Shown: positions 7,189 through 26,515 of the stretch, piece after piece
Layout of the letters: every line of letters starts with the position of its first letter
How positions within the stretch are numbered: the stretch's first letter is position 1
Assembly (NCBI RefSeq): GCF_016918765.2
Contig: NZ_CP092104.1
Coordinates: 2,170,001-2,234,000 of the forward strand
DNA: 64,000 nucleotides
Reading direction: 5' to 3'
Origin: Flagellatimonas centrodinii
GTDB taxonomy: Bacteria; Pseudomonadota; Gammaproteobacteria; Nevskiales; Nevskiaceae
The notes under the pieces: model-generated
What the model was told of the DNA's origin: nothing
The model's input: only the letters and a program-made list of their open reading frames with translations
Databases searched by the model: none
Position numbers and translations under genes: made by a program

Positions 7189-8315
7189 CAGTTGGAAAGT
7201 AGCTTTCGGTGGGTCTGTATGGACATGAGCATGCCGAAACCGGCCAGCAGGCTCACCGCTGAGGTGCCACCGTAGCTGATCAGTGGCAGGGGCACCCCCA
7301 CCACCGGCAGCAGACCGATGACCATGCCTATGTTAATGAAGACATAGACAAAGAATTTGAGCGAGAGTGCCGCCGCCAACAAGCGCTGGAAGGTGTCTTG
7401 CGCCCGCAGCGCGATGACCAGGCCGCGGCCGACGATGCCAAGATAGAGCAGCAGCAGGAACAGCGTTCCGATCAGGCCGAATTCCTCGGCGATCACCGAA
7501 AAAATGAAATCGGTGTGTGATTCCGGCAGGAAGTCGAGCTTGGCCTGGGTGCCCTCCAGCCACCCTTTGCCGAACAGGCCACCTGAGCCGATGGCGATCT
7601 TCGACTGGGTGATGTGGTAGCCGGCCCCCAAAGGGTCGCGCTCGGGGTTGATCAGCGTCAGGATGCGGCCGCGTTGATAGTCGTGGAGCTGGTGCCAGAG
7701 GATGGGGGTCGCCGCGGTGACCACCAGGACCGCACCAATGATCCACCGCCAGCGCAGACCCCCGAAGAAGAGCGCGAAACCGCCGGCCGCAATCATCAGC
7801 AAGGCAGTGCCGAGATCCGGCTGCTGCATCACCAGCATCGCCGGTACGGCAACCAGGGCCAGGGCAACCGACATCGTGCCGATGCTGGGTGGCAGCAGAC
7901 GGTGGTGAAGGTATGCAGCGACCAGCATCGGCATGGCCAGCTTCATCATTTCCGATGGCTGGAAGCGGATCACACCCAGATCAAGCCAGCGCTGCGCGCC
8001 CTTGGCCGCGTCGCCAAGAATCAGTACCAGGATCAGCAGCAGGACGGTGACGCCATAGAGCCAGGGGGAGGCCGTGCGGTACCACTCGGGCGGCGATTGC
8101 GCCACCGCCACCATCACCACGAAGCCGAGCGCCAGTCGCTTGCCCTGGGCCCATACAGCATCGGTGTCGTGTCCGGAGGCGGAGTACAGCACCACCAGTC
8201 CCAGGCCGGATACCAGCAGCAACAGGACCAGCAGCCAGGAGTCTATGCGCCAGTGCTCCAGCCAGTCGCTGAGGCTGGGCTCCTCGGTGCGCCGACCGAC
8301 CTCAAGGAGTGGCAT
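7188..8315 (-). CDS. rodA: Rod-shape-determining peptidoglycan glycosyltransferase RodA (SEDS family)
   Basis: RodA polymerises lipid II glycan strands with PBP2 in the elongasome of the inner membrane. The 375-residue protein is almost entirely hydrophobic, with about ten membrane segments. It carries the SEDS signatures GVIRFQPSEMMKLAMP near residue 115 and, near the C-terminus, PVVGVPLPLISYGGTS. It starts inside the end of mrdA (14-base overlap) and shares a base with mltB downstream, the usual mrdA-mrdB arrangement. The ATG at 8315 is the first available and gives a normal N-terminal cytoplasmic tail before the first membrane segment. Confidence 0.96.
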   Translation of the reverse strand: MPLLEVGRRTEEPSLSDWLEHWRIDSWLLVLLLLVSGLGLVVLYSASGHDTDAVWAQGKRLALGFVVMVAVAQSPPEWYRTASPWLYGVTVLLLILVLILGDAAKGAQRWLDLGVIRFQPSEMMKLAMPMLVAAYLHHRLLPPSIGTMSVALALVAVPAMLVMQQPDLGTALLMIAAGGFALFFGGLRWRWIIGAVLVVTAATPILWHQLHDYQRGRILTLINPERDPLGAGYHITQSKIAIGSGGLFGKGWLEGTQAKLDFLPESHTDFIFSVIAEEFGLIGTLFLLLLYLGIVGRGLVIALRAQDTFQRLLAAALSLKFFVYVFINIGMVIGLLPVVGVPLPLISYGGTSAVSLLAGFGMLMSIQTHRKLLSN

Positions 8316-10239
8316 TGGCAGGCTCCGGTGTCGGGCGGGGTGTGGGGCGACTCAACGCGGGCACGACAGGCGGAGGACTCTCGAAGCGCACCTCGCCCAA
8401 CAGGTACTGGTCCATGACCTTGCGGGCGATCGGCCCCGAGACCGCGCCACCGTGTCCTGCGTGTTCGGCCAGTACGGCAATGGCGATCTGCGGATCGTCC
8501 GCCGGTGCAAAGGCGATGAACAAAGCGTGGTCGCGCAGGTGCAGTGGGGTCTGCTCCAGACTGCGTGCCACACGGTCCTCTTGGGACAGGCCGGCAACCT
8601 GCGCGGTGCCGGTCTTGGCGGCGATCAGATAGGGTGCGCTGCTGCCAACCCGATAGGCCGTGCCACCCGGCTGATGGGCAGTATCGATCATCGCCTGGAT
8701 CACCTTGTCCCAGTGACGGCTGTCGCTGAGCACCACCGGCGGTAGCCCGGTGGTGGTCTCGTCGATGCTGGTGCCGCTGGCCGGGTCCCGGGATGCGCGC
8801 AGGACATGTGGGGTGAAGCCGTTACCGCGCATCGCGATGCGTGCGGTCATCTGGGCCAATTGCAGCGGCGTGGTCAGGGTGTAGCCTTGGCCGATGCCGA
8901 TGTTGAGGGTCTCGCCGGGGTACCAGGCCTCGGCGCGGGTACGTCGCTTCCACTCGCGCGAAGGCATCAGACCGGTGCTCTCCAGCGGCAGATCGATGCC
9001 GGTGCGATCGCCAAGGCCGAACTGAATCATGGCATCGTGAATGCGATCGATCCCGAGGGTCATTGCCAGCTGGTAGAAATAGATATCGCAGCTGTGCATG
9101 ACCCCCGACACCATGTCCATCCAGCCATGGCCCTGGCGGCGCCAGCAGCGATAGCGGCGGGTCGAGCCCGGCAGCTGCATGCTGCCACCGCAGAATTCGC
9201 GGTGTTCCGGGTCGGTGACGTTGTATTCCAGCCCGGCCAGTGCCATCGCCGGTTTGACGGTTGACCCCGGGGGATATTGACCTTGCAGGGCGCGGTTGAA
9301 CAGTGGCCGCGAACGGTCTTCAAGCAGCGCTTGATAGGAGGCCACGTCGATGCCCTCAACAAAGCCGTGCGGATCGAATCCAGGTTTGCTGACCAGCGCG
9401 ATCACCTCGCCATTGCGGGGGTCCAGGGCGACCACCGCGCCGTTGAGCTCGCCGAGCGCAGTCTCGGCCACCTGTTGCACCCGGGCATCAAGGCTCAGTA
9501 CCAGGTTCTGCCCCGACTTTCCGGGTCGGTGGTCCAGCTCGCGCAACGGGCGCCCGAGTGCATTGGCCTCGATGATCTTGGCGCCCGGCAGGCCGCGCAG
9601 GCGTTCCTCCTGACTGCGTTCGACCCCCGCCTTGCCGATCTGCGTGAGTCCTTGGTAGGCCGTGGTGTCGATGCGCTGCAGATCGGCTTCCGAGATGCCG
9701 CCGACATAGCCGATGACATGGGCGGCGGAGACCCCCAGCGGGTAGTTGCGGGTGAGGCCGGCGGTTACTTCCACCCCACCAAGGTCGTGACGATTGACCT
9801 CGATGCGGGCGACTTCTTCCATCGACAGGTTGCTGCGCAGCGGAACACCCCGGTAACGCGGGGTTTTGCGCACACGCTCCTCGAACCGCGTGATGTCGGC
9901 GTCGGTCAGTTGTACGAGGCCACCGAGCTGGGCGATCAGCGCCGGCATGTCCTCGACCTGTTCCGGGACCACGTCCAGCACGAAGGCAGGGCGGTTTTCG
10001 GCGAGTACCACGCCGTTGCGGTCGAAGATCAGGCCACGGACCGGGGGTACCGGGGTGACGCGCAGCCGGTTTTCGTCAGCACGGGTGGTGTAGTAGCGGT
10101 GGTCTTCCACCTGCAGACGCACGAGGCGACCGATCAACAGCAGCGATAGACCGACGCAGACGAGCGCGCCCACCGCGATGCGGCTGGAAAACAGATTCTT
10201 TTCGCGGTGAAGATTCTTGAGGGGCTCGTAGCGCGCCAT
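8302..10239 (-). CDS. mrdA: Penicillin-binding protein 2 (elongasome D,D-transpeptidase)
   Basis: PBP2 crosslinks side-wall peptidoglycan made by RodA. The 645-residue protein has one N-terminal membrane anchor (about 20-40), a pedestal domain beginning with the VRGLIFDRNG block (about 68-77), and a transpeptidase domain. Active-site motifs are S326-T-V-K329, S383-C-D385 and K542-T-G544. A Cys-containing insert (C350, C365) resembles the one seen in other proteobacterial PBP2 proteins. The ATG at 10239 lies about 70 bp from mreD, behind an AT-rich stretch with a hairpin, so mrdA may also have its own promoter. The last 14 bases overlap rodA. Confidence 0.97.
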   Translation of the reverse strand: MARYEPLKNLHREKNLFSSRIAVGALVCVGLSLLLIGRLVRLQVEDHRYYTTRADENRLRVTPVPPVRGLIFDRNGVVLAENRPAFVLDVVPEQVEDMPALIAQLGGLVQLTDADITRFEERVRKTPRYRGVPLRSNLSMEEVARIEVNRHDLGGVEVTAGLTRNYPLGVSAAHVIGYVGGISEADLQRIDTTAYQGLTQIGKAGVERSQEERLRGLPGAKIIEANALGRPLRELDHRPGKSGQNLVLSLDARVQQVAETALGELNGAVVALDPRNGEVIALVSKPGFDPHGFVEGIDVASYQALLEDRSRPLFNRALQGQYPPGSTVKPAMALAGLEYNVTDPEHREFCGGSMQLPGSTRRYRCWRRQGHGWMDMVSGVMHSCDIYFYQLAMTLGIDRIHDAMIQFGLGDRTGIDLPLESTGLMPSREWKRRTRAEAWYPGETLNIGIGQGYTLTTPLQLAQMTARIAMRGNGFTPHVLRASRDPASGTSIDETTTGLPPVVLSDSRHWDKVIQAMIDTAHQPGGTAYRVGSSAPYLIAAKTGTAQVAGLSQEDRVARSLEQTPLHLRDHALFIAFAPADDPQIAIAVLAEHAGHGGAVSGPIARKVMDQYLLGEVRFESPPPVVPALSRPTPRPTPEPANATP

Positions 10240-17253: not shown

Positions 17254-17717
17254 TCATCCCGCCCTACCGGATCGGGCCCTCGCAGATTGCCGGCGCCGGC
17301 AAGGGACTGTTTCTGGCGGCGCCGGTGGCGCGGGGGGCGGTGATCATCGCGCCTGACAATGTGCACACCGTCTGGCCCGAGTCGCGGCTGCGGGCGCTGC
17401 CCGCGGACAGCCTCGAAGTGCAGGCCAGCGTCCGTTGGTTCGAGCAGTGGTTCTCGATCACCCCGGAGTGGAGTGACGAGTGCTACGTCAACCACGCGTT
17501 CAAACCCACCGGGCTGTGGCATCTGGGATTCATCTTTGCACTCGCCGACCTGCCGGCGGACACCGAAGTGACCAGCGACTACCGGCTGTTGCTCGGGGAT
17601 GGCGAGAATCCGGGCTTTGTCTGCTCGCAGACCGGGCAGCCGATTATCGGACTGCCCTGGCAACTCAGCCTGCAGACCTCTGCGCGTCAGCTCCTGGGCC
17701 TGTTCGAACGCAGTTGA
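17250..17717 (+). CDS. SET-domain protein (putative protein-lysine methyltransferase)
   Basis: A 155-residue protein consisting of little more than a SET core. Visible hallmarks are the N-terminal SQIAGAGKGLFL turn (the GxG SAM-binding element), CYVNHAF in the place of the eukaryotic NHS-C motif, and FALADLPADTEVTSDY, which matches the aaxdIxxGeEltxdY block. Compact bacterial SET proteins of this kind exist, but their substrates are mostly unknown. Its ATG overlaps the hslO stop as ATGA, hinting at a link to Hsp33 or to stress. The 3' end overlaps the convergent thioesterase gene by 31 bases. The fold is clear; activity and substrate are not. Confidence 0.82.
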   Translation: MIIPPYRIGPSQIAGAGKGLFLAAPVARGAVIIAPDNVHTVWPESRLRALPADSLEVQASVRWFEQWFSITPEWSDECYVNHAFKPTGLWHLGFIFALADLPADTEVTSDYRLLLGDGENPGFVCSQTGQPIIGLPWQLSLQTSARQLLGLFERS

Positions 17718-18136
17718 TAGACGCCGTGTGACTGCGCCACGACCACCCCGCTGGGGTCAGTGAGGTCGCCGGTCAGCACGAACTCCGCCTTGCCGTGGGC
17801 GTCCAGATCGGCCTCGATACGCGCAATCTCGCTGTCGTCGATGCGGATGTCGATGCGGACATCAGCGGTGGCCGGCTTGAGGAACTTGAGGTCGAGGGAC
17901 TTCACGATCGGGAAGCACTTCGCCGGGTCGAAGGTCGACAGGAACAGGGCGCCCCCGGGGATCTCGGCACAGGTGAACAGGGCACCGGCATACATGGTGC
18001 CGATATGGTTGCCATTGCCGGCAAACGGCATGCGACAGACCACGTGCCCCCGTTCCAGCCGTTCGACCTGCAGACCGGTTCTTTCGACAAAGGCGATACC
18101 CTTTTCGAGCATCTGGATCGCCGGCTGTGCATCCAT
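17687..18136 (-). CDS. Hotdog-fold thioesterase-like protein (PaaI/DUF4442 type)
   Basis: A 149-residue single-domain hotdog protein. The GNGNHIGTMYAGALFTCAEIPGGA segment corresponds to the hotdog helix, with its HxGxxxxGAL-like motif (about residues 43-55). This group includes acyl-CoA thioesterases and the DUF4442 proteins. No catalytic Asp/Glu can be assigned with confidence. It is convergent with the SET gene and divergent from the CFA-synthase-like gene 75 bp upstream, in a neighbourhood rich in lipid-related functions, which supports an acyl-thioester substrate only by inference. Confidence 0.75.
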   Translation of the reverse strand: MDAQPAIQMLEKGIAFVERTGLQVERLERGHVVCRMPFAGNGNHIGTMYAGALFTCAEIPGGALFLSTFDPAKCFPIVKSLDLKFLKPATADVRIDIRIDDSEIARIEADLDAHGKAEFVLTGDLTDPSGVVVAQSHGVYQLRSNRPRS

Positions 18137-18210: not shown

Positions 18211-19254
18211 ATGAATCCCATCCAGTGGGTTGAACGGGGCCTGGTCCCCGACGTTGTTGCCCGAGCCGGTATGCGCGCGCTCATCGCCAAACGGCTGCAG
18301 GCGCCGGAAAGCGTCGACCAGGAGCGTCGCGTTGAAGCGTTCGCCTCGTTTCTCGATGACCTGCGGCGCAGCCCGATCGCCATCAACACTCGCGATGCCA
18401 ACGTGCAGCACTACGAAGTTCCTGCCGAATTCTTTCATCGTCACCTTGGCCCCTGCCTGAAGTATTCCTGCTGCCTGTATCCGGACGGCAACGAGACGCT
18501 GGCACAGGCCGAAGAGAAGATGCTTGCCCTGTATGCCGAGCGTGCCGGGCTGGTCGACGGCATGCGCATCATGGATCTCGGCTGCGGCTGGGGGTCACTG
18601 TCGCTGTGGCTGGCGCGGCAGTACCCGAATTCACAGGTGGTCGGGCTCTCCAACTCCCACGGCCAGCGCGAATTCATCATGGCGCAGGCCAAGTCCAGGG
18701 GGCTGACGAACCTGACGATCATCACCGGCGATATCGTCGACTTCGACTACCCGGCACAGGGGGTGGAAGCAGGCTTCGACCGTGTCATGTCGATCGAAAT
18801 GTTCGAGCACATGAAGAACTACGGCCTGCTGCTGAAGAAGATTGCCGGCTGGTTGAACCCCGAGGGCAAGCTGTTCGTCCATATCTTCGCCCACAAGTTG
18901 CTGGCCTATCACTACGAAGTGCGCGACGAAAGTGACTGGATGACGCAGTACTTTTTCCTCGGTGGCACCATGCCCAGCGAACACCTGCTGGCGCATTTTC
19001 AGGACGATCTTCGTCTGGCCCGCCAGTGGTGGGTGAACGGCCAGCACTACGAAAAGACCTCCAACCACTGGTTGGCCGGCATGGACGCCGCGCGTGCCGA
19101 CATCATGCCCATCTTCGAGCAGGCCTACGGCCGTGCTGACGCCGGTATCTGGTTCAACCGCTGGCGAATGTTCTACATGGCCGTCGCCGAGTTCTTCGGC
19201 TATGCCGACGGCAATGAATGGGGCGTGGGCCACTACCTGTTCGAGAAGCGGTAG
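18211..19254 (+). CDS. Cyclopropane-fatty-acid-synthase-like SAM methyltransferase
   Basis: A 347-residue class I SAM-dependent methyltransferase of the Mycolic_acid/CFA synthase superfamily. Evidence is the HYEVPAEFFHRHLGPCLKYSCC entry segment (about 70-90), the SAM-binding IMDLGCGWGSLSLWLA motif (about 115-130), the SIEMFEHMKNY motif and a C-terminal FYMAVAEFFGY helix. The MFEHMKNY form and the shorter length resemble the coclaurine-N-methyltransferase-like branch rather than the 380-residue E. coli Cfa. Substrate could be an unsaturated acyl chain or a small amine. It is followed by the MBL lipoprotein gene on the same strand with an 8-base gap. Confidence 0.85.
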   Translation: MNPIQWVERGLVPDVVARAGMRALIAKRLQAPESVDQERRVEAFASFLDDLRRSPIAINTRDANVQHYEVPAEFFHRHLGPCLKYSCCLYPDGNETLAQAEEKMLALYAERAGLVDGMRIMDLGCGWGSLSLWLARQYPNSQVVGLSNSHGQREFIMAQAKSRGLTNLTIITGDIVDFDYPAQGVEAGFDRVMSIEMFEHMKNYGLLLKKIAGWLNPEGKLFVHIFAHKLLAYHYEVRDESDWMTQYFFLGGTMPSEHLLAHFQDDLRLARQWWVNGQHYEKTSNHWLAGMDAARADIMPIFEQAYGRADAGIWFNRWRMFYMAVAEFFGYADGNEWGVGHYLFEKR

Positions 19255-21077: not shown

Positions 21078-21770
21078 TCAGAACGTTGGAAAGCGCAGCG
21101 CCGGGTCCTTCAGCAGTTCCGGGCTGCGGGCGGCGATCGCCCCCCAGAACAACAGCAGGATGAAGCGCTCGGCCTGGCGACGGATCTCCGGGCGACGCGC
21201 CTCTTCTTCGAGATAGTCCATCGAGAAGAACACCATCTGTCGGACGATGATGCGGGCGATCTCGATCAGCTCGGCGGAGGTCACGCCCGGCAGCTTGAGG
21301 ACCTCCATCAGATCCTCCGTCATGTCCTGAGCGATGCCTTCCAGCAGATCCTGCATGGCCTTGCGCATCACCGGGCTGCTGCCGTAAAGCTCGCGCACGC
21401 CGACGGTATAGGCTTCACGGTGCTCGGTCACGAAGTCGAGGACCAGGCCGACCGACTCGCGGGCAATGGCCTGGGCTTCCTGCAGGCCTTCCGCCGGGCT
21501 GCTGAAATCCGCCATGCGGAAACCCTTCTGTGCCGGCTGCATGCGCCGCTCCCGGAGGCCGCTGCGCAGGGCGGTGCCGAGTTCCGCCAGCATGGCGACC
21601 CCCAACTCATCGAAGTCGCGGAAGTGGCGGTAGAAGGTGTTGGGGTTGAGCCCGGCATGGCGGGCCACCTCGCGCAGCCCCAGCGAGGCGATGCTGCGGG
21701 TGGTCGCCGCCAGTTCGAGTGCAGCCTCCATCAGCCGTTCGCGGCCGCTCAGCGGGTTCTTTGACTTCAT
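21078..21770 (-). CDS. TetR-family transcriptional regulator, FabR-like
   Basis: A 230-residue TetR protein. The N-terminal helix-turn-helix (about 25-55) reads SLGLREVARHAGLNPNTFYRHF, close in pattern to FabR, the repressor of unsaturated fatty acid synthesis genes. The remaining 170 residues form the ligand domain. It is divergent from the PF10118 gene over 161 bp packed with inverted repeats, the usual arrangement of a local TetR regulator and its target. An acyl-chain or acyl-CoA ligand is an inference from HTH similarity and the neighbouring lipid genes. Confidence 0.88.
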   Translation of the reverse strand: MKSKNPLSGRERLMEAALELAATTRSIASLGLREVARHAGLNPNTFYRHFRDFDELGVAMLAELGTALRSGLRERRMQPAQKGFRMADFSSPAEGLQEAQAIARESVGLVLDFVTEHREAYTVGVRELYGSSPVMRKAMQDLLEGIAQDMTEDLMEVLKLPGVTSAELIEIARIIVRQMVFFSMDYLEEEARRPEIRRQAERFILLLFWGAIAARSPELLKDPALRFPTF

Positions 21771-21826: not shown

Positions 21827-21901
21827 CATCAATTGATGGCACATTGACGGTTGACGTCAATGTGTACATCCGTCTACTCTGCAGGTAGACGATTGTATAC
21901 A
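21827..21901. promoter_or_regulatory. Palindrome-rich control region between the TetR and PF10118 genes
   Basis: Three inverted repeats lie in 75 bases of AT-rich DNA. CATCAATTGATG (21827-21838) is a perfect 12-bp palindrome. ACATTGAC-N7-GTCAATGT (21841-21863) is perfect. A long repeat has 17-base arms (21861-21877 and 21885-21901) that match at 14 of 17 positions around a 7-base centre, with a perfect CGTCTAC/GTAGACG core. One or more are probably operators for the divergent TetR protein. The last, ending 30 bases before the PF10118 ATG, could also fold in the 5' UTR. Confidence 0.65.
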
Positions 21902-21931: not shown

Positions 21932-22825
21932 ATGACTGCCAAAAAACCCGCCCCGACGTCCCGCAGTGCCAAGACGCTGTCGGTGATGCCGACGCGCCGC
22001 GACGTGACGTTCGATCTTCCCGCAGACCGCGTGCATGACTGGGCCAGCGGCAATGTTCACTTTACCCACCTGATGAACACCATGTCGTTGGTGATTCCGG
22101 TCGGCGAACGCTTCTTCATTGACGCCGTGCGGTATTACCGCGATCAGGTGACCGACCCTGAGCTGAAAAAGGCGGCCACCGCATTTATCGGCCAGGAGGC
22201 GATGCACGGGCGTGAGCACGACGAGTACAACGCCAAGGTATTCGAGCGTCTGCCCAACGCCGAGCGTTTCGAGAAGCGCATCACCGCACTGTTGCGCTGG
22301 TTCCAGACCCGCACGCCGCCCTCCATGCGGTTGTCGGGCACGATTGCGCTGGAGCACCTCACCGCGATCATGGCCGATGGCCTGCTGCAGGAACCGCGGC
22401 TCAAGGAACAGTCGGAGCCGGGCTACTCCGCGCTGTGGCACTGGCATGCGCTTGAAGAGACCGAACACAAGGCGGTCGCCTTCGATGTCTGGACCACCAC
22501 GCAGGGGACCGGTCCGCGCGCCTACCTGGAGCGCAGCTTCGGGTTGGTGCTGGCCACCACCATTTTCTGGGCCGAGGTGATTCCGGCCTATCTCAGCTTC
22601 CTGCGCCATGAAGGCAAGCTGACCGACATCAAAGGCTGGCGCGCGTTCTACCGCCTCGCCTTCGGTGAGATCGGCTTCCTGCGCAAGATGGTGCGGCCGT
22701 GGTTTGACTACTTCCGTCCCGGGTTTCATCCCTGGCATCACGACAATCGGGCCTTTCTCGAGGACATCGATGCGTTCGTCGACCAGTACACCCGTACCCA
22801 GGGGCCGATGGCCCGGGCCGCCTGA
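21932..22825 (+). CDS. PF10118-type predicted metal-dependent hydrolase with ferritin-like di-iron motif pattern
   Basis: A 297-residue helical protein of the family annotated only as predicted metal-dependent hydrolase (PF10118). Reading the sequence, acidic and His residues fall into E59, E89-x-x-H92, E141 and E176-x-x-H179, the E/ExxH/E/ExxH order of carboxylate-bridged di-iron proteins (ferritin-like oxygenases, desaturases, N-oxygenases). This suggests a four-helix di-iron centre rather than, or in addition to, a hydrolase. Start: ATG 21932 with a GAGGAGG Shine-Dalgarno. It is divergent from a FabR-like TetR gene and ends at a strong terminator, so it is a monocistronic regulated gene. 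Substrate unknown; a lipid is plausible from context. Confidence 0.8.
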   Translation: MTAKKPAPTSRSAKTLSVMPTRRDVTFDLPADRVHDWASGNVHFTHLMNTMSLVIPVGERFFIDAVRYYRDQVTDPELKKAATAFIGQEAMHGREHDEYNAKVFERLPNAERFEKRITALLRWFQTRTPPSMRLSGTIALEHLTAIMADGLLQEPRLKEQSEPGYSALWHWHALEETEHKAVAFDVWTTTQGTGPRAYLERSFGLVLATTIFWAEVIPAYLSFLRHEGKLTDIKGWRAFYRLAFGEIGFLRKMVRPWFDYFRPGFHPWHHDNRAFLEDIDAFVDQYTRTQGPMARAA

Positions 22826-22833
22826 GCGGCAAC

Positions 22834-22860
22834 AAAAAGCCCGGCATTGCCGGGCTTTTT
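22834..22860. terminator. Bidirectional Rho-independent terminator
   Basis: A perfect GCCCGGC / GCCGGGC stem (22839-22845, 22849-22855) with an ATT loop is flanked by five A on the left and five T on the right. It can therefore stop both the PF10118 transcript (plus) and the convergent lipoprotein/acyl-CoA synthetase transcript (minus). It fills the gap between the two gene ends. Confidence 0.9.
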
Positions 22861-22869
22861 GTTGGGGGG

Positions 22870-23670
22870 TCAACGACACCAGACTGGTTTCTCGTAGGGG
22901 TCGTCCCGCAACTGCGTCAGGCGCGCCACCACTTGCGGTCGCACCGTGGTCTCCGGAAAGCGCTCGATGAATTCTGAAAGGGTCTGCTCCACCGGGGCCT
23001 GTGCCTCGGTGCAGGTGCAGGTGCCATGCGCAACGACATCCTCGATATCGGCCAACCATTGGCGGCTGAAATCGCCATAGCTGTCCGGGTGCTGAGCCCG
23101 AAACTGCTGCCAGGCTGCGTACTGATCGAGCAGAACCGGCTCGCCGAAGCGGACGCAGGGCGAGGCGCTATCGGCAAAGCGCAAGTACACCGGGAGTGCC
23201 TGGTCGCTGTAGGAGGCGACGAACTGTTCGAAAAACGCAACGTCGGCAGGGCGGCCGGAGGATTGCGCCAGCGCCAGCAGGGCCGGGCCGTCGATTTCGG
23301 CATGGATGTCGTAACCCCGATGGAAGACGAATCCGGGGACCTCCGATTGCAGTTGCGCGAAACGATCGGCGTCGAGCCGCTCAAGCCATGCCTGCTGACT
23401 GTCATCCAGCAGCATGACCGCATCCTGCACCTCGGCAGCGGCGATCAGCAGTGGCTCCAGCGACTGCGGTGCCTCGGCCTGGTGGATCGCCTGCCACAGG
23501 GCGCTGAAGCGCTCGATGGCGGGCAGCGTTTCGTGCCCGGTGTCGGCAGTGGGCGTCGGCACGTCCACGGTCGTGGCAGTGTCGTTTCTGCACGCCGTCA
23601 ACAACAGCGCGGACGCGAGGGTAACCGCTGTGATGGTCCGCTGGACGCCGCGGGCGCTCACGCCTCCCAT
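22870..23670 (-). CDS. Hypothetical lipoprotein
   Basis: A 266-residue protein with a lipoprotein signal (SALLLTAC lipobox) and a Thr/Pro-rich tether, then a mostly helical, acidic domain. Cysteines are unusual for a periplasmic protein. There is one in ASPCVRF, a CTCT pair (HGTCTCTEAQ) and one three residues from the end in VWCR, so disulfides or a metal site are possible. I do not recognise the family. The ATG at 23670 overlaps the end of the acyl-CoA synthetase gene. A GTG forming a GTGA overlap at 23661 is an equally good start. It is the distal gene of a two-gene unit ended by the terminator at 22834-22860. Confidence 0.65.
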   Translation of the reverse strand: MGGVSARGVQRTITAVTLASALLLTACRNDTATTVDVPTPTADTGHETLPAIERFSALWQAIHQAEAPQSLEPLLIAAAEVQDAVMLLDDSQQAWLERLDADRFAQLQSEVPGFVFHRGYDIHAEIDGPALLALAQSSGRPADVAFFEQFVASYSDQALPVYLRFADSASPCVRFGEPVLLDQYAAWQQFRAQHPDSYGDFSRQWLADIEDVVAHGTCTCTEAQAPVEQTLSEFIERFPETTVRPQVVARLTQLRDDPYEKPVWCR

Positions 23671-25313
23671 CCCAGTTTCTCGCGATCGCCGCACTGTTTC
23701 TCGATCAGGGCTGCGTAACGGCTTTCGACCTCATTTCGCTTTACTTTCATGGTCGGCGTCATCAGGCCGTTGTCGATGGTCCAGAGGTCCTTGACCACCA
23801 CCACCTTGGCGATCTGCTCGTGGGCTTCTAGCGGCTGGTTGACGGCTTCGACGTCGGCGACCAACGCCTGGCCGGCATCCTCGCGGCTCATCGCGCGCCC
23901 GGCATCGTTGAGCGAGACCAGCAGGATCGGCTGCTTCAGGCCGCTGCCGACCAAGCACAGCTGGTCGATCAGGGTGTTCCGCGCCATGGCGCCCTCGATC
24001 GGCGCTGGCGCCACGTACTTGCCCTTCAAGGTCTTGAAGATGTCCTTCACGCGGCCGGTAATGAACAGATAGCCGTCTTCGTCGATGCGGCCGCGATCAC
24101 CGGTGCGCAGCCAACCATCTTCGGTGAAGGTCTCGGCGGTCTTGTCGGGGGCCTTGTAGTACCCGGCCATCACGGCCGGGTGTTTGAACTGGATCTCGCC
24201 ATCGGCGGCGATGCGCATGTTGGCGCCCGGCTGGGCTCGGCCCACAGAGCCCCAGCGGTTGGCCTTGGGCAGATTGGCGGTGGCATAGATATTGTTCTCG
24301 GTCATGCCGTAGCCCTGCAGCACCTTGATACCAAGTTTGTCGAACCACTCGATCAACGGGATCGGCATCGGCGCTGCGCCGACGAACAGATAACGGGCAT
24401 TCTGCAAGCCGATGGCCGTCTTGATCTTTTTGCGGATCAACCCTGACAGCAAGGGGATCTTCAGCAGTCGGTCGAGCTTGGCTTGCGGCATCTTCTTGAG
24501 CACACCGGCCTGGATGCGGCTGAACACCAGCGGCACGCCAAAGAAGCGGGTGGGGGCCACTTCCGCCAGCTGCTCGGCCAGCTTGTCGATGTGCTCGAGG
24601 AAGTAGACCTGGGCGCCGAAGAACAGGCTGCCCAGTTCGACCGCGCCGCGTTCGAAGGCATGGGCCAGCGGAAGGTAGGAGAAAAAGCGTTCCTGGCCTT
24701 CGGCCGGCATTGCCTTGTTCATGCCTTGGGCGGCAAACAACATGTTCTCGCCGTTGATCATCACGCCCTTGGGATTGCCGGTGGTGCCCGAGGTATAGAC
24801 CAGCGTGACCAATGCCGACGGGTCCGGCGGCGTGTAGCCCTGCAGCGGCTTGGCCCCGGCCAGCAGTGCATCCCATTGATGGTCGCAGTCGATGCCGAGG
24901 TCCGGATAGGGCATGGCGATCTTGACGATGCCGTCTGGCAGGCCGGGGGCGAACTCCTGTGGGTCCGGCATCGGGCCGATGAAGATCGCCTTGGCCTCAC
25001 AGTGTTTGAGGATGTACGTCACCGCGCTCTCGGCCTGCTTCGGATAGAGCCCGACGCTGATGTAACCGGCCATGGCAATCGCCAGATCGGCCAGGAACCA
25101 GTGGGCGGTGTTGCGTCCGGAGATGGCAATTGCACTGCCGGGGGGGAAGCCGAGCCCCTTGAGAGCCGCCGCCATGGTACGAACCTGGGCTTCAGCCTGC
25201 GACCAGGTGATCGGCTGCCACTGTCCGTTGACGGGCTGGAACAGCCAGGGTGTGTCCGGCCGCTCCTGTGCCCAATGCAGCAGCATCTCGATCGGATTCT
25301 TCTGCGTGGTCAT
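23658..25313 (-). CDS. AMP-dependent long-chain acyl-CoA synthetase/ligase
   Basis: It activates fatty acids through an acyl-adenylate to acyl-CoA. The 551-residue product has the ANL-superfamily motifs in order: VYTSGTTGNPKGVM (A3, about 175-188), GYGMTENN (A5, about 330) and GWLRTGDRGRIDEDGYLFITGR with the DIFKTLKGKYVAP hinge (A7-A8/A10). The pattern is that of the long-chain (FadD15-like, LC-FACS) group. The frame is open to 25385, but the ATG at 25313 (MTTQKNPIE) follows a GGGGAG sequence and matches the usual start. It is followed by an overlapping lipoprotein gene. It is divergent from the SMP-30-like gene. Confidence 0.92.
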   Translation of the reverse strand: MTTQKNPIEMLLHWAQERPDTPWLFQPVNGQWQPITWSQAEAQVRTMAAALKGLGFPPGSAIAISGRNTAHWFLADLAIAMAGYISVGLYPKQAESAVTYILKHCEAKAIFIGPMPDPQEFAPGLPDGIVKIAMPYPDLGIDCDHQWDALLAGAKPLQGYTPPDPSALVTLVYTSGTTGNPKGVMINGENMLFAAQGMNKAMPAEGQERFFSYLPLAHAFERGAVELGSLFFGAQVYFLEHIDKLAEQLAEVAPTRFFGVPLVFSRIQAGVLKKMPQAKLDRLLKIPLLSGLIRKKIKTAIGLQNARYLFVGAAPMPIPLIEWFDKLGIKVLQGYGMTENNIYATANLPKANRWGSVGRAQPGANMRIAADGEIQFKHPAVMAGYYKAPDKTAETFTEDGWLRTGDRGRIDEDGYLFITGRVKDIFKTLKGKYVAPAPIEGAMARNTLIDQLCLVGSGLKQPILLVSLNDAGRAMSREDAGQALVADVEAVNQPLEAHEQIAKVVVVKDLWTIDNGLMTPTMKVKRNEVESRYAALIEKQCGDREKLGWEA

Positions 25314-25450
25314 CGACTCAAGCTCCCCAAAGAATGGTTCCCGCGCGCGATTGGCGGAAACTGGTTTATGTTCGTAGGCTTGCAAGTGTATCCAAAGGCC
25401 CCCGCAGGTGCAGGTCGCAGGGGCGCCACACCATTCAGAGGAGCCAGATC

Positions 25451-26515
25451 GTGGGCAAGATCGTCACCGTTGTCATCATCCTGGGGTTGGCCTATCTGCT
25501 CTTCTGGCCGGTGCCGATCAGCCCGCAGGCCTGGACACCGCCGCCCGCGCCACCGACCGACCAGGGGCTGTTCGCCCTCAAGCAGCGATTGCAGGCTGCC
25601 GAAGTGCTGGCCGCCGGGCAGGGCAATGGACCGGAAGGCGTTGCGATCGGCCCCGATGGTGCGGTCTATGCCGGTTTTGACGACGGACGGGTCTTCCGTC
25701 TGGGCCCGGATGGCACCACCATCGACGTACTGGCCGATACCGGCGGGCGCCCCCTCGGCATGGTCATGACCGATCGTGGACTGGTCATCGCCGATGCCCT
25801 GAAGGGCTTGCTGCGGCTGGAAGCGGACGGGCGTCTGACCGTCCTGTCGACGGGCTCGGATGGGGTTCCCTTCCGCTTTGTCGATGATGTCGATGTCGGT
25901 CCGGATGGGCGCCTTTATTTTTCCGACGCCTCACACCGATTCGCGCCGGACGTCCTGATGGACGACTTCTTCGAGCATTCCGGGAACGGACGCCTGTTGC
26001 GGTACGACCCCGTCAGCGGCGAGACCGAGACCCTGCTGGACGGCTTGTACTTTGCCAACGGCATCGCCGTTGGCCCGGGGGGCGACTACGTGTTGGTGAA
26101 TGAAACCGGGCGCTACCAGATCACCCGGTACTGGCTGCAGGGGCCACGTGCCGGACAGTCGGAGCTGTTTGTCGACAACCTCCCCGGGTTTCCCGACAAC
26201 ATCAGCTGGGACGGTGAAGGGCGGTTCTGGCTGGCGCTGTACGCCCCGCGCGACCCGATACTGGACCGTATCCTGCCGCATCCATGGGTGCGCAAGGTGC
26301 TGCGGCGGTTGCCGGAGGCCATCCATCCGGCGCCGGCCAAGCATGCCTGGCTGATGGCGCTCGATACGGATGGGCAGATCGTGCTCAGTGCCCAGGCCAA
26401 GGGCGAGGCGGTGTTCGCGCCGATCACCAGCGTCGAGCGCCGTGGCGAATGGCTGTATCTCGGCAGCCTGTCCTACCCCGGGATGGCGCGGGTCCGAATC
26501 GACGCTATTCGTTGA
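25451..26515 (+). CDS. SMP-30/gluconolactonase/strictosidine-synthase-like beta-propeller protein, membrane-anchored
   Basis: A 354-residue six-bladed propeller protein of the SMP-30/LRE/strictosidine synthase-like superfamily, with repeated GPDGAVYAGF, GPDGRLYFSD and DNISWDGEGRFWLAL blade motifs. The uncleaved N-terminal hydrophobic segment (about 4-20) looks like a signal anchor, as in eukaryotic APMAP. The GTG start at 25451 follows AGAGGAG at good spacing; the longer frame to 25250 has no homology. Lactonase or arylesterase activity is typical of relatives, but the real substrate is unknown. It is convergent with the DUF4426 gene (11-base overlap). Confidence 0.85.
   Translation: MGKIVTVVIILGLAYLLFWPVPISPQAWTPPPAPPTDQGLFALKQRLQAAEVLAAGQGNGPEGVAIGPDGAVYAGFDDGRVFRLGPDGTTIDVLADTGGRPLGMVMTDRGLVIADALKGLLRLEADGRLTVLSTGSDGVPFRFVDDVDVGPDGRLYFSDASHRFAPDVLMDDFFEHSGNGRLLRYDPVSGETETLLDGLYFANGIAVGPGGDYVLVNETGRYQITRYWLQGPRAGQSELFVDNLPGFPDNISWDGEGRFWLALYAPRDPILDRILPHPWVRKVLRRLPEAIHPAPAKHAWLMALDTDGQIVLSAQAKGEAVFAPITSVERRGEWLYLGSLSYPGMARVRIDAIR

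Follow-up and report, generated by a model that had tools for sequence, protein, structure and literature searches.

Proteins annotated as metal-dependent hydrolases (PF10118) are probably di-iron oxygenases or oxidases

The window analyzed here is a stretch of 64,000 nucleotides from Flagellatimonas centrodinii (contig NZ_CP092104.1, positions 2,170,001 to 2,234,000). At its center of interest lies a gene for a protein of the Pfam family PF10118, which is transcribed divergently from a gene for a TetR-family regulator. The features referred to below are as follows, in window coordinates.

17687-18136: thioesterase-like protein, a neighbor in the window
18211-19254: cyclopropane-synthase-like methyltransferase, a neighbor in the window
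21078-21770, minus strand: TetR-family regulator, FabR-like, divergent (Pfam TetR_N, E = 3.2e-7)
21840-21864, unstranded: second inverted repeat, CACATTGAC-N7-GTCAATGTG, listed in the window only
21871-21891, unstranded: palindrome CGTCTAC-N7-GTAGACG between the TetR and PF10118 genes, putative TetR operator
21932-22825, plus strand: coding sequence of the PF10118 protein, 297 aa, ATG start
22106-22108, plus strand: codon of E59, predicted metal ligand on helix 42-70, invariant in 82/82 proteins
22193-22207, plus strand: codons of Q88-E89-x-x-H92 (QExxH), helix 76-106
22352-22354, plus strand: codon of E141, predicted metal ligand on helix 130-153, invariant in 82/82
22445-22468, plus strand: codons of H172-x-x-E175-E176-x-x-H179 (HxxEExxH), helix 163-178 and its end
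22831-22863, plus strand: hairpin AACAAAAAGCCCGGC-ATT-GCCGGGCTTTTTGTT with 15-bp arms just past the stop codon, probable terminator
23658-25385: acyl-CoA ligase-like protein, a neighbor in the window
25400-26512: strictosidine-synthase-like protein (sugar-lactonase fold), a neighbor in the window

The open reading frame (21932-22825, plus strand) has a GAGGAGG box just 5' of its ATG start. The hairpin behind it was absent from the list given by a consensus terminator scan and was read from the sequence instead; because it stands so close behind the stop codon, the PF10118 gene is probably monocistronic in its own genome. On the 5' side, the palindrome lies just downstream of TTGAC boxes, a position that would suit a repressor; a promoter scan gave no sigma-70 site above threshold. 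The original prediction had described the regulator next door as FabR-like. The likeness holds (NCBIfam FabR, E = 8.5e-24), but at 84.4 bits the match falls below the 151-bit cut-off of that model. Relatives of this regulator stand beside PF10118 in 9 of the 80 nearest loci from related genomes, and TCGTCTAC-N7-GTAGACGA, with an equal spacer, recurs in six of these nine (L007, L008, L009, L010, L012 and L047); the remaining three (L018, L025 and L027) differ at the palindrome.

Membership of PF10118, as previously assigned to the 297-residue protein, was borne out by a Pfam scan, in which residues 22-271 matched with an E value of 5.6e-82 and 275.6 bits, against a gathering cut-off of 33.2 bits. 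The residues earlier singled out as a di-iron pattern (E59, E89xxH92, E141 and E176xxH179) are exact in position and numbering in the translation. Missed at that time were E175 and, four residues N-terminal to E176, H172, which gives H172-x3-E176-x2-H179. We predict E89, H92, H172, E176 and H179 to be metal ligands along with E59 and E141, and place Q88 and E175 in the second sphere; among 82 homologous proteins Q88 is Gln in 78 and Glu in 4, whereas each of the other residues named in this sentence is invariant.

Taken alone, the ligand pattern is weak and only moderately above chance: a loosely spaced E/ExxH/E/ExxH arose in 3.3% of 50,000 shuffles of the window protein, and with the extra His added the pattern still arose in 0.11%. 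What settles the matter is conservation, assessed on 129 homologous open reading frames (the window's copy included) from 115 loci, 80 from near relatives and 35 from genome searches. Eighty-two proteins, the window protein among them, were kept at less than 75% identity, and all 297 columns were ranked by entropy. Nine columns held a single residue in 82/82 (E59, E89, H92, E141, E176, H179, P56, H172 and E175), and all nine are among the 25 invariant columns of alignment A1 (85 sequences). The same nine were invariant in 13/13 divergent members, a set that includes all six copies from the own genome plus members from Mycolicibacterium, Nostoc and Acinetobacter plasmids, and in which the identity of the other proteins to the window's copy is 23-34%. 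Thus the expectation that the six residues of the original pattern would be among the most conserved in PF10118 was borne out in both sets, and, because these six are invariant in 82/82, a chance origin of E/ExxH/E/ExxH can be rejected.

The protein had been called helical, and the element list of a predicted model agrees, with eleven helices and zero strands. This AlphaFold2 model (85-sequence alignment; pLDDT 92.6, pTM 0.88) places E59 on helix 42-70, E89 and H92 on helix 76-106, E141 on helix 130-153, and H172 and E176 on helix 163-178, with H179 just behind its end. The earlier refuting condition, a predicted structure with these residues far apart, was addressed at the level of helices, where the predicted ligands sit on the four expected. 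The four-helix bundle of the ferritin-like di-iron oxygenase/oxidase superfamily is present in the predicted model, as is the superfamily's conserved E/ExxH/E/ExxH set, one element to each of the four helices.

When the model was compared with the PDB using VIA-align 2, all 50 of the 50 listed entries were dimetal-carboxylate proteins by title, with CmlI first and AurF, R2lox, ribonucleotide reductase (RNR) R2 and soluble methane monooxygenase (MMO) hydroxylase among the other titles. The Z scores were 13.6 for CmlI (5hyg, 231 residues), 13.2 for R2lox, 13.0 for AurF (2jcd, 231 residues) and 12.5 for soluble MMO; on this scale differences of less than 1 are ties, and helical bundles may reach Z near 13 by their common arrangement. 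Foldseek also put CmlI first (E = 0.019, probability 1.00, TM about 0.5, rmsd about 9-9.9 over two CmlI rows), followed by acyl-ACP desaturases (stearoyl-ACP), R2, R2lox and AurF, and gave no PDB match at an E value of 0.001 or better. In a viral fold library R2 subunits topped the list, at E = 0.025 or worse; PHROGs gave no match for the window protein. At the sequence level, neither phmmer with the protein nor a profile of the close set found a homologue of solved structure up to E = 10, while the profile built from the divergent members matched a single chain among solved structures, 7twa ("4-chloro-allylglycine synthase"), not significantly (E = 1.4). Because the VIA-align 2 list is uniform and the ligand-bearing helices agree with it, we conclude that the predicted fold is that of the carboxylate-bridged dimetal oxygenases and oxidases.

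AurF carries the motifs DESFH (135-139) and HLRDETAH (223-230) in our alignment, and the spacing of H172/E175/E176/H179 equals that of its H223/D226/E227/H230. The window protein and AurF share the order E / ExxH / E / HxxxExxH, with the third histidine equally spaced, and would share with AurF and CmlI the predicted four-helix di-iron fold. According to the available part of one study, three His and four carboxylates bind the metals of AurF, and in the second sphere D135 and D226 are the partners of H230 and H139 (PMC12101540). This ligand set is matched by the window protein, as judged from sequence. Because H172 gives H-x-x-E-E-x-x-H as in AurF, the site is likely to be an AurF-like, seven-ligand 3 His/4 Glu layout, as opposed to the 2 His/4 Glu of desaturases. 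The two differ in the second sphere: AurF has Asp before both ExxH motifs, whereas PF10118 has Q88 for D135 (Q in 78/82, E in 4/82) and E175 (82/82) for D226. They also differ in setting, with lipid-type gene neighbors in near relatives of the window protein.

Shared ligands and CmlI as the best fold match raise the question of an AurF/CmlI-like N-oxygenase acting on an amine. We regard this as improbable, since the residue at the position of AurF's D135, a second-sphere partner in the available text of PMC12101540, is replaced by Q88, and no amine-synthesis family occurs in the top 25, by frequency, of the 100 operon-neighbor families.

PF10118 is not a member of the Pfam AurF family, PF11583: the window protein did not match that model at E ≤ 1. 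A paralogue in the same genome (L002) matched it at about 1e-4 to 1.3e-4 and 22.0 bits, below the 29.6-bit cut-off. In a search of 299 genomes no match was listed for the own genome, the first look there having passed 4 candidates as against 5 before, and three more PF10118 genes, in other genomes, gave matches below the cut-off (G054:C3:272920-273348, G032:C9:956432-956833 and G048:C29:5627-6031). Profile-profile comparison of PF10118 with an alignment of seven AurF members (A2) was not significant (probabilities 0.2% and 3.1%) and is, for that reason, not taken as proof, although the second comparison did pair QExxH with DExxH and HxxEExxH with HxxDExxH. We consider that PF10118 and AurF very probably belong to one superfamily.

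The AurF family was itself heterogeneous in our sample. Alignment A2 holds 7 of 17 AurF-model loci, kept by a filter requiring ExxH and Hxx[DE]ExxH, so that invariance of these motifs in A2 arises by construction; six of these seven have Asp ahead of their first ExxH. Among the ten loci dropped, five had Gln instead of the His of the filter and five had no match to the seven-member model. The five with Gln have DExxH motifs and match A2 weakly, at 14-23 bits. Proteins above the Pfam AurF cut-off with DExxH and with Gln at the place of the third histidine were seen at L157, L158, L159, L166 and L180. As the third histidine is missing from part of PF11583 as sampled, sharing it with AurF is no simple mark of family. 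The Pfam AurF family as sampled thus appears mixed by sequence, may hold several subfamilies, and includes an AurF-proper part that PF10118 resembles in its motifs.

In Q88, the second sphere resembles that of the di-iron halogenases CylC and NocO. As far as can be told from the accessible part of PMC12101540, Gln in place of D135 is a feature of these enzymes, whose motifs are QExxH and HxxDExxH, and alanine at any of nine positions of NocO ended chlorination. The same partial text names acyl chains borne on a carrier protein as their substrates, predicts that the site filled by E196 in AurF is open in CylC, perhaps for chloride, and holds that E252 of NocO, the Glu of one of the nine positions, does not bind metal (PMC12101540). 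PF10118 has QExxH (Q in 78/82), HxxxExxH, two more conserved positions and an AurF-like predicted fold, and shares eight of the nine letters of the NocO set, as far as that text tells. The ninth letter differs, PF10118 having HxxEExxH (82/82) rather than HxxDExxH, and E141 would, on sequence grounds, be a ligand, whereas E252 of NocO reportedly lies off the metal (PMC12101540), a difference that may matter. As the comparison was made by way of a published description of motifs, this resemblance is a likeness of motif and not proven kinship.

The nine-residue set, matched by QExxH, HxxEExxH, E and E except for E in place of D, and the carrier-tethered acyl substrates of CylC and NocO, both taken from the available text of PMC12101540, would suit a CylC/NocO-like dimetal halogenase or an enzyme directly related to these. 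Against it, the neighbors scanned in the window are not of natural-product type, save for the strictosidine-synthase-like protein (25400-26512), and, unlike a specialized halogenase, PF10118 is found in 55 of 61 relatives (own genome included), a single genome carrying as many as 14 copies. We hold this reading to be very improbable.

Stearoyl-ACP desaturase, soluble MMO, R2 and R2lox have the ligand core E / ExxH / E / ExxH. The window protein shares this core with them and, in the predicted model, their fold; it differs from the desaturase/MMO/R2 type in H172 (82/82), likely a third histidine. Most non-haem di-iron hydroxylases have 2 His/4 carboxylates, according to the part of PMC12101540 available. 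If H172 belonged to the second sphere, the site would be of the usual 2 His/4 Glu kind, and the enzyme would desaturate or hydroxylate acyl groups. Stearoyl-ACP desaturases and soluble MMO are indeed among the fold matches, and genes for a FabR-like regulator and for acyl-CoA ligase-, thioesterase- and cyclopropane-synthase-like proteins lie nearby. However, H172 is invariant in 82/82 and is spaced exactly as the third histidine of AurF, and CmlI and AurF rank first or close to first in the VIA-align 2 list, although within about Z 1 of R2 and MMO. A site of the desaturase/hydroxylase type therefore seems to us unlikely, while carrying a real share of the probability. The earlier claim that the order of ligands marks a di-iron protein gains from the dimetal fold and the conservation, but its likening of the site to ferritins and desaturases probably needs correcting, as H172, a candidate seventh ligand, would make the site AurF-like.

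The window protein is a member of PF10118, "Metal_hydrol", which we take to be the same as COG3687, and departs from the family's description only as to the name. That the family label, metal-dependent hydrolase, might be misleading was also part of the original prediction, and here the analysis agrees: nothing in the results backs hydrolysis, and the fold matches are to dimetal redox and oxygen-activating proteins. Carboxylate-bridged dimetal sites can serve non-redox roles too. Together with the database name, this would favor either a true metal-dependent hydrolase or a metal carrier lacking catalytic activity, built on a four-helix dimetal site. As neither a fold match nor a motif points to hydrolysis, we give that possibility little weight, and the "hydrolase" label is probably wrong.

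In the window some neighbors are lipid-flavored by sequence likeness (acyl-CoA ligase-, cyclopropane-synthase- and thioesterase-like). Among the 80 nearest loci, the genes within about 5 kb included short-chain dehydrogenases (SDRs; 48), alpha/beta hydrolases (ABH4 model; 31), MerR regulators (31), flavoproteins like flavin monooxygenases (FMOs) or Baeyer-Villiger monooxygenases (BVMOs) (30) and a relative of the hydrolase half, the first, of a hydrolase-SDR fusion (22), in a set that is biased to near relatives and in which one open reading frame may count for several models. Of the 30 flavoproteins, 28 carry FxGxxxHxxxW, which forms the core of the fingerprint of type I Baeyer-Villiger enzymes, and 19 of the 30 show the strict W[PD] form. 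An FMO lay within 5 kb of 9 of 111 PF10118 matches in relatives, among the matches listed, as against 1.2 expected; the count covers the genomes common to the PF10118 and FMO searches, and the expectation is a uniform-density estimate.

The natural fusion of an alpha/beta hydrolase and a short-chain dehydrogenase lies near PF10118 at L038:2965-4707, and a hydrolase like its first half stands directly 5' of a PF10118 paralogue in the own genome (L151:4786-5739). A family of about 340 aa, with no Pfam match in the one member scanned, was also seen near PF10118 (L046:3931-4962, L193:5819-6838 and L196:2819-3862), in 6 of the 80 nearest loci and in 2 of the 20 unbiased ones described below.

The gene order shared by the near relatives L007, L009, L010 and L047 is TetR, divergent from PF10118, then SDR, a second ferritin-like protein and flavoprotein; at L008 the stretch ends inside the ferritin-like gene. 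On a Mycolicibacterium chubuense plasmid an SDR, a ferritin-like protein and a flavoprotein likewise lie beside PF10118, followed by an alpha/beta hydrolase. The second ferritin-like protein is encoded at the following places.

L007:6891-7826: second ferritin-like protein
L009:6858-7793: second ferritin-like protein
L010:6905-7831: second ferritin-like protein
L047:6870-7805: second ferritin-like protein
L149:8648-9568 (Mycolicibacterium plasmid): second ferritin-like protein

This protein, of about 310 aa, has E53 / E83xxH86 / E143 / E174xxH177 invariant in 5/5, a 2 His/4 Glu pattern, and a weak match to Rubrerythrin (0.0019) below the cut-off. It had no match in the own genome and was found in 0 of 60 genomes in a search of the phylum.

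A different picture emerged from 20 unbiased loci, one per genome. A draw of 150 genomes had given 22 with a match besides the own genome, and two of these were omitted because their genus was already represented; one of the regions used, L195, is cut at a contig end. The 20 loci had SDR at 3, FMO at 2 and alpha/beta hydrolase at 0, as against 4, 0 and 1 in 20 control regions from 17 of the same genomes, three of them sampled twice. The SDR/FMO/hydrolase context was therefore rejected as a signature of the whole family. No genes of the SDR/flavoprotein/hydrolase cascade were recognized in the window by the same models, and among operon neighbors, of which the 25 commonest families out of 100 were surveyed, ferredoxins were not conspicuous. 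For the near relatives, the context suggests C-H oxidation of lipid-like substrates, and one hypothesis, for this subfamily only, is that the gene order represents a subterminal oxidation route in which either of the two di-iron-type proteins would be the hydroxylase.

PF10118 was present, counting the own genome in each case, in 23 of the 150 genomes drawn across the phylum and in 55 of the 61 relatives (up to 14 matches per genome). The own genome has six PF10118 genes with 23-29% mutual identity, apart from one pair at 57%. Tandem pairs were seen at L061, L062, L065, L066 and L071 (Salinisphaera, with one record labeled Endozoicomonas) and at L063, L068, L040 and L048; in the last two, one close and one distant member adjoin. 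Eighty plasmid records had a match, 57 from Acinetobacter and others from Burkholderia, Rhodococcus, Mycobacterium and Nostoc; among the 40 of these 80 that were listed, annotated records with a gene under the match name it "metal-dependent hydrolase". Plasmid pn4 of Nostoc sp. UHCC 0926 (L147) has a member at 7941-8780, with a TetR gene and a methyltransferase nearby. On an Acinetobacter pittii plasmid (L148, 1947-6804), PF10118 lies beside ferredoxin, cytochrome P450 and FAD oxidoreductase genes, with an IS5-family transposase gene separating it from this set.

Taking the fold, ligands and conservation together, we think it likely that the window protein belongs to the di-iron proteins of the ferritin superfamily, has a seven-ligand site of the AurF type and activates O2. 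That it binds two metals is very likely, and there is a good probability that its reaction is oxidative and not hydrolytic. E59, E89, H92, E141, H172, E176 and H179, contributed by four helices, would hold the two metals, probably iron, and Q88 and E175 would be second-sphere partners of the two ExxH histidines. The reduced di-iron center would most likely bind O2, after which an organic substrate would be oxidized. The divergent FabR-like TetR repressor probably governs expression through the conserved palindrome. In relatives, an SDR might then convert the alcohol to a ketone, a Baeyer-Villiger-type flavoprotein the ketone to an ester, and an alpha/beta hydrolase cleave the ester.

The substrate is where our reading becomes tentative. 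The suggestion that the protein might be an oxygenase or desaturase-like enzyme acting on lipids stands as regards its di-iron kind, but the lipid part is suggestive, a local hint. We think it possible, at somewhat less than an even chance, that the window protein and its near relatives hydroxylate or desaturate C-H bonds of a lipid-like substrate, followed in the relatives by SDR, BVMO and hydrolase. It is more doubtful that PF10118 as a whole is a widespread family of C-H-functionalizing di-iron oxygenases, with 3 His/4 Glu, a halogenase-like Gln, lipid-like substrates and, in near relatives, a subterminal cascade; under that proposal the substrates may be hydrocarbons, acyl chains or terpenoids.

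In a literature search that covered few subscription journals, we found no paper describing PF10118 as di-iron, nor, with most such journals again outside the search, any paper under the names COG3687 or Metal_hydrol. The "metal-dependent hydrolases" of PMC4520260, PMC10637631 and PMC4428276 were set aside, since in the available parts of these papers nothing identifies them as PF10118. The label has already influenced research: a lanthipeptide study, in the part available, retained a PF10118 group in its set of candidate proteases (PMC8960859).

On the evidence of sequence and predicted structure, PF10118 members are probably di-iron oxygenases or oxidases, and not hydrolases, and the label "metal-dependent hydrolase" should not be relied on. 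If this is true, many genes in Alcanivorax, Marinobacter, Mycolicibacterium and other genera would switch from hydrolases to oxidative enzymes, and the family, pairing AurF-like ligands with a second sphere like that of the halogenases, would provide a natural test of how di-iron chemistry is steered by the Asp-to-Gln swap.
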